Shown: positions 8,103 to 10,688 of the stretch, piece after piece
How the letters are laid out: each line of letters begins with the position of its first letter
How positions within the stretch are numbered: the stretch's first letter is position 1
Origin: Beijerinckiaceae bacterium
GTDB lineage: Bacteria; Pseudomonadota; Alphaproteobacteria; Rhizobiales; Beijerinckiaceae
Reading direction: 5' to 3'
Length of the DNA: 32,307 nt
Assembly (NCBI GenBank): GCA_947453155.1
Contig: CANGFE010000028.1
Span: 1 to 32,307 of the forward strand
The notes under the pieces: model-generated
Databases searched by the model: none
What the model was told of the DNA's origin: nothing
What the model saw: only the letters and a program-made list of their open reading frames with translations
Position numbers and translations under genes: made by a program

Positions 8103-8993
8103 GTGCAAGCTCGGCACAATCTTGTCTCGACGGGGGCTGCTTGCCTCTCAGCAATCACAGGTCTGACGGGATTCATTCCCGCGGCCTTCGCACAGGGCTT
8201 CCAGCCTGGCCTTTCTCATGCGGCCCAAGACCAAATTGGCATGATGCAACCAGCATCAACCATGGCCCAGGAAATGGCAGCGTTTCACAACAACCTGTTG
8301 TTGCCGATTATCACGGTGATTTCGATCTTCGTGTTGGCGCTGTTGATCTATGTGATCTTCCGCTTTAACGAGCGCGCCAATCCGAACCCGTCGCGCACGA
8401 CGCATCACACGGGTCTCGAAGTGGCTTGGACAGCCATTCCGCTGATGATCCTCGTGGTCATCGCGATCCCGTCTTTCCGCTTGCTCACCAAGCAGATCGC
8501 TCTGCCTGAAACCGACATGACGGTGAAGGTGATCGGCAAGCAATGGTACTGGACCTACGCTTATCCGAAGGATCAGAACGGCGGCTTTGAATTCGACTCC
8601 AACTTGCTCGACCAGACGAAGCTTGCTGCTGGCAAGTTGAAGCTGCTCGATGTGGACAATGAAGCTGTCGTGCCGGTCGGCAAAGCGATCCGCTTGCAGA
8701 TCACTGCTGACGCTGTTGGCGTCATCCACTCCTTCACGATCCCCGCGCTCGGCGTTCGTATGGACGCAGTTCCCGGCCGCTTGAACGAAGCTTGGTTCAA
8801 GGCTGAGAAGGAAGGCATTTATTACGGCCAGTGCTCCAAGCTTTGCGGCAAGGATCACGCCTATATGCCGATCGCCTTCCGTGTTGTGTCCGAGCAGGCC
8901 TATGCGGCTTGGCTCGCCGACGCGAAGAAGAAGTTCGCTTCTGCTTCCAGCGATGTGACGGTGGCTGACGCCACCGCCACCATCCGCCAGTAA
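8103..8993 (+). CDS. coxB: Cytochrome c oxidase subunit II
   Basis: Subunit II takes electrons from cytochrome c through its dinuclear CuA centre. The GTG at 8103 is preferred: AGGAG lies 7 bases before it, and it gives a basic signal peptide cleaved near AFA-Q (residues 30/31). An ATG at 8070 would add an acidic extension without a ribosome-binding site. Two membrane helices follow (the second includes AWTAIPLMILVVIAIP), then the KQWYWTY electron-entry aromatic patch. The CuA ligands are H209, C244, C248, H252 and M255. The residue between the cysteines is Lys246 (CSKLC), whereas the usual family motif is CSELC. The mature length is typical. It is the first gene of the oxidase operon. Confidence 0.95.
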   Translation: MQARHNLVSTGAACLSAITGLTGFIPAAFAQGFQPGLSHAAQDQIGMMQPASTMAQEMAAFHNNLLLPIITVISIFVLALLIYVIFRFNERANPNPSRTTHHTGLEVAWTAIPLMILVVIAIPSFRLLTKQIALPETDMTVKVIGKQWYWTYAYPKDQNGGFEFDSNLLDQTKLAAGKLKLLDVDNEAVVPVGKAIRLQITADAVGVIHSFTIPALGVRMDAVPGRLNEAWFKAEKEGIYYGQCSKLCGKDHAYMPIAFRVVSEQAYAAWLADAKKKFASASSDVTVADATATIRQ

Positions 8994-9023
8994 TCAAACC
9001 GTCTCGAAAGACGAGGGAAAAAG

Positions 9024-10688
9024 ATGGCAACCACAACCGCCCATCACCACGACGACCACGCCCATCACATTCCGACGGGCTGGCGCCGCTATATGTTCTC
9101 GACCAACCATAAGGACATTGGCACGCTCTATTTGATCTTCGCGATTTTCGCAGGGATCATTGGCGGCCTTCTGTCGATCGCCATGCGTGCAGAACTCGCG
9201 GGCACGGGCATTTCGGTGTTCCCGTGGATCTCGAAAATGCTGACCGGCGATGGTTCGATCGATGCGGCGAAGAACATGTACAATGTGTTCATCACTGGCC
9301 ACGGCGTCATCATGATCTTCTTCATGGTTATGCCCGCCCTCATCGGCGGCTTTGGCAACTGGTTCGTTCCGATCATGATCGGCGCGCCGGATATGGCCTT
9401 CCCGCGCATGAACAACATTTCGTTCTGGCTGCTCCCGGCCTCATTTGCTCTGCTCATCATCTCGATGTTTGTCGAAGGTGCGCCGGGCTCGATGGGCTTT
9501 GGCGGCGGCTGGGTGATGTATCCCCCGCTCTCCTCGAACACGGGTCACCCCGGTCCGGCGATGGACTTCGTGATCCTGTCGCTCCACGTAGCTGGTGCGT
9601 CGTCGATCTTGGGTGCGATTAACTTCATCACCACGATCTTCAACATGCGCGCGCCTGGCATGACACTGCACAAGATGCCGCTGTTTGCTTGGTCCGTGTT
9701 GATCACGGCCTTCTTGCTTGTGCTGTCGCTGCCGGTTCTGGCGGGCGCCATCACCATGTTGCTGACCGACCGTAACTTCGGCACCACCTTCTTCGATCCG
9801 TCGGGCGGTGGCGATCCGATCCTGTTCCAGCATCTGTTCTGGTTCTTCGGTCACCCGGAAGTTTACATTCTCATTCTTCCTGGCTTCGGCATCATCAGCC
9901 ACATCATCTCGACCTTCTCGAAGAAGCCCGTGTTCGGTTATCTCGGCATGGCTTACGCGATGGTTGCGATTGGCTTCGTCGGCTTCCTCGTGTGGGCTCA
10001 CCACATGTATACGGTCGGCCTCTCGCTCAACACGCAGCGCTACTTCGTCTTCGCGACGATGGTGATTGCCGTGCCCACAGGCGTGAAGATCTTCTCCTGG
10101 ATTGCGACGATGTGGGGTGGTTCGATCCGCTTCACCACGCCGATGATCTGGGCGGTGGGCTTCATCTTCCTGTTCACGGTGGGTGGTGTGACCGGCGTCG
10201 TTCTCGCGAATGCTGCCATCGACCGCTACATGCACGAGACCTATTACGTTGTGGCTCACTTCCACTACGTGCTGTCGCTCGGCGCCGTGTTCGCGCTCTT
10301 CGCGGGCTTCTACTACTGGTTCCCGAAAATGTCGGGCTACATGTACAATGAGTTCCTCGGCAAGCTGCATTTCTGGGTCATGTTCGTCGGTGTGAACCTG
10401 ACGTTCTTCCCGCAGCATTTCTTGGGCCTCGCTGGCATGCCGCGTCGTTACATCGACTATCCGGATGCTTACGCTCTGTGGAACCAGATCTCGTCTTACG
10501 GCTCCTATCTGTCGGGCTTTGGCGTTCTGATCTTCCTCTACATCATCTGGGAAGCTTTCAGCGCCAAGCGCATCGCGGGCAACAATCCGTGGGGTGAAGG
10601 TGCAACGACGCTGGAATGGACGCTGACTTCGCCGCCTCCGTTCCACCAGTTCGAAACGCTGCCGCGCATCACCGGCTCGGAACACTAA
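9024..10688 (+). CDS. ctaD: Cytochrome c oxidase subunit I (aa3 type)
   Basis: This is the catalytic subunit, 554 residues with twelve membrane helices, that reduces oxygen to water and pumps protons. H277 and Y281 in GHPEVY are the CuB ligand and cross-linked tyrosine. E279 marks an A1-type D-channel and K355 the K-channel; D123 lies in the [12 protein letters not shown] loop. H412 and H414 in HFHY bind hemes a3 and a. At the non-redox Mg/Mn site the sequence is H404-E405 (MHETYY), where an Asp is usual. GAGGGA precedes the ATG. coxB ends 30 bases upstream, with a small CGTCT-CGAA-AGACG hairpin between. A strong hairpin follows the gene. Confidence 0.98.

Follow-up and report, generated by a model that had tools for sequence, protein, structure and literature searches.

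What becomes of an A1-type (aa3) cytochrome c oxidase when two of the three protein ligands of its non-redox Mg/Mn ion are exchanged? The question is raised by coxB and ctaD, the genes of subunits II and I, in a 32,307-nucleotide stretch of DNA from a Beijerinckiaceae bacterium (assembly GCA_947453155.1, contig CANGFE010000028.1, positions 1 to 32,307 of the forward strand; the whole stretch is called the window below). In CoxB, Lys257 stands where the metal-binding Glu is usual, and in CtaD the metal-site His404 is followed by Glu405 in place of Asp. From the comparisons described here we consider it likely that this is an intact oxidase under selection whose Mg/Mn site has been rebuilt, a Lys-Glu pair forming a salt bridge in place of the metal. 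The system is not of a new kind but a variant of a familiar enzyme.

According to a passage of PMC10598403, bovine Glu198 binds CuA through its main-chain carbonyl and Mg through its carboxyl. Table 1 of PMC12901375 sets bovine E198, D369 and H368 beside the equivalent residues of Rhodobacter, Paracoccus, yeast and Thermus ba3; the same source describes the ba3 enzyme as having Gln and Asn (Q151/N377) for Glu and Asp and a water cluster without Mg, and mentions that some authors see the water cluster holding Mg/Mn as a store of pumped protons. Paracoccus His403 is connected with a heme propionate in a passage of PMC7435947. A term search of the main text of PMC4013037, on alphaproteobacterial COX operons, gave no mention of Mg2+, magnesium or CuA, and no report of this Lys/Glu pair appeared among the hits listed in a literature search confined to open-licence papers.

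The CuA loop of CoxB reads GQC-S-K-L-C-GKDHAYM (GQCSKLCGKDHAYM), with Lys257 inside it, and alignment to 1ar1_B and 1m56_B places Glu opposite this residue in both chains. The initial annotation had already pointed to Lys in the CSKLC motif; it numbered the residue Lys246 because its start was chosen 11 codons later than that of the longest open reading frame (ORF) used here, and such an alternative start is possible downstream of the ATG at 8070. It had also placed His-Glu for His-Asp in CtaD, and this was found at 10233-10238, opposite HD in the subunit I chain 6pw0_A. Compared with bovine E198, D369 and H368, two of the three protein metal ligands are therefore changed while the His is kept. 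The site thus lacks both the subunit II Glu and the subunit I Asp of a Mg/Mn site, and equally the Gln (II) and Asn (I) of a ba3-like metal-free one; the oxidase may nevertheless work like a metal-free site although it is not of the ba3 type. Probably, a buried metal-binding pair across two subunits has been turned into a charged Lys-Glu pair.

The remainder of the enzyme agrees with the earlier claim that the other CuA, CuB, heme and channel residues are intact, those checked being kept in both subunits. CtaD displays GHPEVY, PTGVKIFSW with the K-channel Lys, the D-channel Asp and WAHHMY with the two CuB His in translation and alignment, functional meanings which we assume for these motifs. 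CoxB retains H220, C255, C259, H263 and M266, which we take to be the CuA ligand set (His, Cys, Cys, His, Met of subunit II). Residues of the water cluster, as listed in Table 1 of PMC12901375, are also intact in CoxB (including D232) and in CtaD (Q269, D400, H404, R474, R475). By sequence, the Paracoccus denitrificans and Rhodobacter sphaeroides aa3 oxidases share with the window the subunits, CuA, CuB, heme ligands and D- and K-channel motifs, whereas their metal site consists of Glu (II) and His-Asp (I) in contrast to Lys and His-Glu here. The best match of CoxB in the PDB is 1ar1_B, and those of CtaD after the top match are 6pw0, 1m56 and 1ar1, chains that we take to come from Paracoccus and Rhodobacter. 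Both genes are under apparent purifying selection in comparison with the relative locus L034 (nonsynonymous and synonymous divergence, dN and dS, of 0.009 and 0.356 for ctaD and of 0.061 and 0.469 for coxB).

To follow the site among relatives, loci were collected from 41 relative genomes by CoxB pattern, from the 80 loci nearest the window CoxB (L034-L113, selected as the 80 most similar out of 591, which consequently over-represent the window's kin) and from order, class and phylum samples chosen by CtaD match and not by motif (89 loci from 143 matching genomes, 88 from 110 and 60 from 88). Of 291 loci, 29 without one of the two sites were dropped, and merging of identical or near-identical rows (9 in a first round, 6 in a second) gave the 247 rows used; outside this set and the trees stand the phylum loci (L292-L351, 6 of the 60 without a CoxB match in the stretch). 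Each locus is coded by CoxB residue 257 and CtaD residues 404-405. The 247 non-redundant loci comprise 162 E/HD, 26 K/HE, 22 E/QD, 14 Q/HN, 7 E/QE and 6 F/HE, with rarer states Q/HD (3), N/HD (2), R/HN (2), K/HD (1), V/HN (1) and E/HG (1). HE accompanies 26 of the 27 CoxB Lys residues and none of the 192 CoxB Glu residues; conversely, the 32 HE rows have Lys (26) or Phe (6, Methylocystis and one kin) in CoxB and never Glu, and Glu is likewise absent from CoxB in all 17 HN rows. The two combinations that would have spoken against a coupled change, Glu with HET and Lys with HDT, were hence found 0 times in 192 and once in 27 (L214), the sole rows with Glu at both positions being the 7 with QET, so that in CtaD Glu occurs together with CoxB Glu only in a Gln background.

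Both sites are present in 86 of the 89 order-sample loci, none of them K/HE, and in 86 of the 88 class-sample loci, where one is K/HD and again none K/HE; among the 54 of 60 phylum-sample loci with both sites, two are K/HE, both from the window's family group. No K/HE was found outside Alphaproteobacteria among 30 loci fetched from the 38 non-alphaproteobacterial genomes with a CtaD match, all of which have CoxB Glu, 21 with HD and 9 with QD. These counts confine K/HE, in these samples, to a Beijerinckiaceae-centred clade, which holds the window's genus, Methylocella, Lichenibacterium and bins assigned to Beijerinckiaceae or Methylobacteriaceae. Among cultured organisms, K/HE was seen in Methylocella silvestris, Methylocella tundrae and Lichenibacterium minor. 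A feature unique to this genome was discarded: within the window's genus group, 20 of 25 genomes, its own included, have CSK[LI]C; two others have CSELC, two gave no match and one match (L024) is not CoxB. HET was found in all 15 of the CSK[LI]C genomes whose locus reaches the CtaD site, the other 5 ending before it. The suspicion of the initial annotation that this is a lineage trait was thereby borne out.

K/HE belongs to a wider pattern, the same pocket holding a Gln-Asn pair in other alphaproteobacteria. The window resembles the Thermus thermophilus ba3 oxidase in that both site carboxylates are replaced by a matched pair, the ba3 cluster being without Mg in the description of PMC12901375, and it differs from this B-type enzyme with uncharged Gln151 and Asn377 in being A-type with charged Lys and Glu. 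The Gln/Asn pair of ba3 also occurs in the 14 Q/HN loci, A-type oxidases with Q and HNT (L225, L233, L237, L240, L241, L255, L256, L261, L263, L265, L266, L270, L275 and L285), 12 of which also have Tyr or His for CoxB D232 and Gln at position 230; apparently, their metal site is dissolved like that of ba3. The oxidases of the Bradyrhizobium, Afipia and Nitrobacter type, from the same order as the window, also have an altered metal-site ligand, but here Gln takes the place of CtaD His (QDT in 22 rows, QET in 7) and CoxB Glu is kept. This state occurs in these genera, in others and in 9 of the 30 non-alphaproteobacterial loci (L063-L065, L067-L076, L078, L085, L112, L113, L312-L317, L319, L330, L338). 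Methylocystis and kin (L055, L056, L058-L062, L066) share the 36-row clade described below and the CtaD Glu with the window, but their CoxB has CFFIC or CYFIC without Lys, with aromatics beside CuA, and their CtaD has HEGYY with a Thr-to-Gly change. A Skermanella plasmid copy of the oxidase has CREIC in CoxB and HDT in CtaD.

The coupling of the two positions was then weighed against shared ancestry. CoxB 257 and CtaD 405 changed 14 and 13 times and share 9 branches against 0.51 expected, which ranks first among the 67,200 inter-subunit pairs in which each column changes at least 5 times (Fitch states, ties resolved arbitrarily). By corrected mutual information the pair ranks 2 of 129,729, behind CoxB 55/CtaD 470, while CtaD His404 was rejected as the partner of CoxB 257 (rank 78,078 of 129,729). 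The leading pair, CoxB Q55 (8232-8234) and CtaD A470 (10431-10433), with the top value of 0.484 and 23 shared branches, is another concerted pair. Among 11 independent pairs on supported branches of a FastTree of the 247 rows (trait columns removed), contrasting CoxB non-E with CtaD non-D, on average 6.8 went the same way, 0.2 the other way and 4.0 showed no difference (median p 0.016), and a Pagel test, which can be swayed by single deep changes, favoured dependent rates (likelihood ratio 48.1, 4 degrees of freedom, p 9e-10). Given the independent pairs, the Pagel test, the tree and the column-pair ranks, co-occurrence by shared ancestry alone is insufficient, and the coupled change proposed by the initial annotation stands, as far as sequence can tell, far above background. 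The co-changing neighbours CoxB D232 and S256 and CtaD Q269 and V164 are water-cluster residues of Table 1 of PMC12901375, and CoxB R230, which also co-changes, lies two residues from D232. CtaD 164 is V in 26/26 K/HE rows and T in 157 of 162 E/HD rows.

In the clade tree (IQ-TREE, concatenated CoxB and CtaD, 46 rows), a 36-row clade with support 100/99 contains all 26 K/HE rows. Among these the synonymous codons vary (Lys AAG 24, AAA 2; Glu GAG 19, GAA 7). Each substitution, Glu to Lys and Asp to Glu, is reachable by one base change; both being held across the clade in spite of differing codons and under apparent purifying selection, K/HE is more than a chance occurrence. A sequencing error or pseudogene is ruled out by the open frames, purifying selection and the same residues in many genomes. 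Within the clade, L009 and L041 (a record of L012), two genomes from the genus group of the window, are E/HD and nest among K/HE rows in sets of 5 (with three K/HE rows; 99/97), 8 (100/99) and 16 rows (100/99). The best tree keeping them out was 96 log units worse, with p 3.2e-5 in an approximately unbiased (AU) test whose group was named after the tree had been seen. The separate gene trees nest them as well, in the starred sets of 8 and 16 rows (99, 99) for CoxB and of 5 rows (96) for CtaD. The 26 K/HE rows are uniform at 13 signature columns; L009 and L041 both retain the clade residue at 11 of these and depart from it only at the two metal-site columns, where a single base suffices for each flip. 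There was no sign of a short-segment transfer into these genomes, given the 11 clade-type columns and the nesting in both gene trees. These observations suggest that one sub-lineage changed both residues back to E/HD. Also inside the clade are the N/HD rows L115 and L116, with neither Lys nor Glu, and Methylocystis (F/HE) on a long branch, which in the CoxB tree taken by itself branches, weakly supported, just outside the K/HE rows.

A formal charge count over CoxB 230, 232 and 257 and CtaD 405 (Lys and Arg +1, Asp and Glu -1) sums to 0 in all 26 K/HE rows (RDKE), in 13 of the 14 Q/HN rows (mostly QYQN) and in the single K/HD row, L214. In the CoxB-Glu rows (162 E/HD, 22 E/QD, 7 E/QE, 1 E/HG) it is -2 in 189 of 192, a value that a divalent ion would cancel. 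On this balance, the two main states presumed to lack the metal have a simple rationale: the salt bridge would keep the charges and Q/HN remove them. For the CtaD Glu of the Methylocystis-type F/HE loci there is no obvious charge partner.

In the mechanism that we propose, the side-chain nitrogen (NZ) of Lys257 would occupy the place of the divalent ion and pair with Glu405 in a salt bridge that the longer side chain of this Glu would help to span, while the backbone carbonyl of Lys257 would still bind CuA as that of Glu does and His404 would remain the hydrogen-bond partner of the heme a3 propionate. As the water cluster above the hemes would keep its net charge, electron transfer from CuA and proton release could continue without the metal, and the enzyme is presumably active and proton-pumping. 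The broader view, that the clade swapped Mg/Mn for a charge-preserving inter-subunit salt bridge, that a sub-lineage reverted both residues and that metal and salt bridge are interchangeable in nature, we hold with only slight preference over its negation.

Several observations weigh against this account. D232 and H404, also members of the site, are conserved, so that a metal could still sit there, and among the hits listed in the open-licence literature search there was none on the metal content, structure or activity of a K/HE enzyme. Strong as the coupling is, it has exceptions: L214 has Lys with HD, three Q/HD and two N/HD rows have lost CoxB Glu while CtaD keeps Asp, and six F/HE rows (Methylocystis and kin) retain HE without Lys. 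In the reverse direction, 9 independent pairs gave 5.5 the same way, 0 against and 3.5 without difference, with a median p of only 0.0625. The charge balance was noticed post hoc and fails, off by one, in 15 of 55 non-Glu rows. As for the nested genomes, in the CoxB tree alone the fork that joins L009/L041 to the K/HE rows nearest them is supported at only 57, and four further variable columns (CoxB 62, 66; CtaD 84, 140) carry the residue of the outside majority in both.

The main rival explanation, which we judge unlikely, is that H404, E405, D232 and water still coordinate a metal, Lys257 swinging out or steadying the hydration shell and the longer Glu compensating for the lost CoxB Glu. It draws on the retention of H404, D232 and Q269 in every K/HE row, on the F/HE rows that keep HE without Lys and on the 7 QET rows, by which CtaD Glu is compatible with CoxB Glu; yet a Lys beside a divalent cation is, as general knowledge has it, electrostatically costly, no row among the 192 with CoxB Glu combines it with HE and the His kept, and in L009 and L041 Asp accompanies Glu at both sites. 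Less probable still is a relaxed site, where the metal is dispensable, the residues drift and lineage inheritance mimics coupling. The many other alphaproteobacterial combinations (Q/HD, N/HD, R/HN, F/HE, V/HN, E/HG) fit such drift, in contrast to the 26 of 36 clade rows that hold K/HE with differing synonymous codons, the first rank of the co-change with its Pagel result, and the joint return of both sites in L009/L041. Retention of ancestral E/HD by L009 and L041 with K/HE arising several times in parallel seems very improbable, for although change counts on the tree alone cannot separate gain from loss, their nesting in three sets otherwise K/HE would demand several parallel double gains, and even so both sites would have changed together each time.

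With the replacement of the metal by the Lys-Glu pair as the preferred explanation, the locus bears on an old question, the role of the non-redox Mg/Mn ion of cytochrome c oxidase, for which older mutant work reportedly exists in Rhodobacter and Paracoccus. A natural, selected Lys lineage and an E/HD lineage nested in it are ready-made enzymes for asking if the metal is structural, electrostatic or catalytic, and they offer a clear example of compensatory evolution between two subunits at their interface. The value is that of a natural experiment, testable with cultured Methylocella.

In the window the cox genes follow in the order coxB, ctaD, a ctaB-like UbiA-family gene, ctaG/cox11, coxC, a DUF983 gene and SURF1, so that COX1 and COX2 domains lie in adjacent genes together with COX3 and assembly genes, as in A1-type (aa3) oxidases. 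Their coordinates and those of the site residues are given in the table; the SURF1-family ORF probably has its true start later.

Table. Positions in the window of the metal-site residues and of the cox genes.
Feature	Position	Strand	Remarks
CuA loop C255-S-K257-L-C259-G-K-D-H263-A-Y-M266 of CoxB	8832..8867	+	aligned to 1ar1_B, 1m56_B
CoxB Lys257, codon AAG	8838..8840	+	corresponds to the Mg/Mn-binding Glu, E198 in the bovine and E218 in the Paracoccus enzyme (PMC12901375 Table 1)
CtaD H404-E405 (YMHETYY)	10233..10238	+	H404 10233-10235, E405 10236-10238; position of bovine H368-D369
CoxB R230-M-D232	8757..8765	+	D232 = bovine D173, Paracoccus D193; co-vary with CtaD 405 in the survey
CtaD V164	9513..9515	+	bovine T127 / Rhodobacter V173 of the water cluster, by reading of the alignment
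CtaD Q269, water-cluster residue	9828..9830	+	bovine Q232, by reading of the alignment; kept in 26/26 K/HE rows
coxB / ctaC, cytochrome c oxidase subunit II	8070..8993	+	307 amino acids on the longest ORF; Pfam COX2/COX2_TM, strong scores
ctaD / coxA, cytochrome c oxidase subunit I	9024..10688	+	554 amino acids; Pfam COX1, strong score
UbiA-family protein, ctaB-like (heme O synthase)	10794..11732	+	PF01040; specific name from position and context
ctaG/cox11 oxidase assembly protein	11924..12511	+	PF04442
coxC / ctaE, subunit III	12653..13522	+	PF00510
SURF1-family assembly factor	13836..14702	+	PF02104; match covers residues 61-271

This coxB is the only CuA oxidase gene found in the genome (83.6% complete), with a single COX2-family match. 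A second COX1-family gene of the same genome (L003, G000:C7:39647-40936), which shares about 22% identity with CtaD across the portion that matches, looks cbb3-type by a motif that we presume to be diagnostic, and therefore the aa3 oxidase of the window would not be the sole heme-copper oxidase of the genome. At 8700-8735, CoxB has two extra residues just before the CuA His (TADAVGVIHSF compared with TATDVIHAW in 1ar1_B) and Phe for Trp after it; the Asp lost in this stretch is presumably a cytochrome c docking residue. Upstream of coxB, a gene of an IalB-family protein (PF06776) lies divergently at 7233-7763 on the minus strand.

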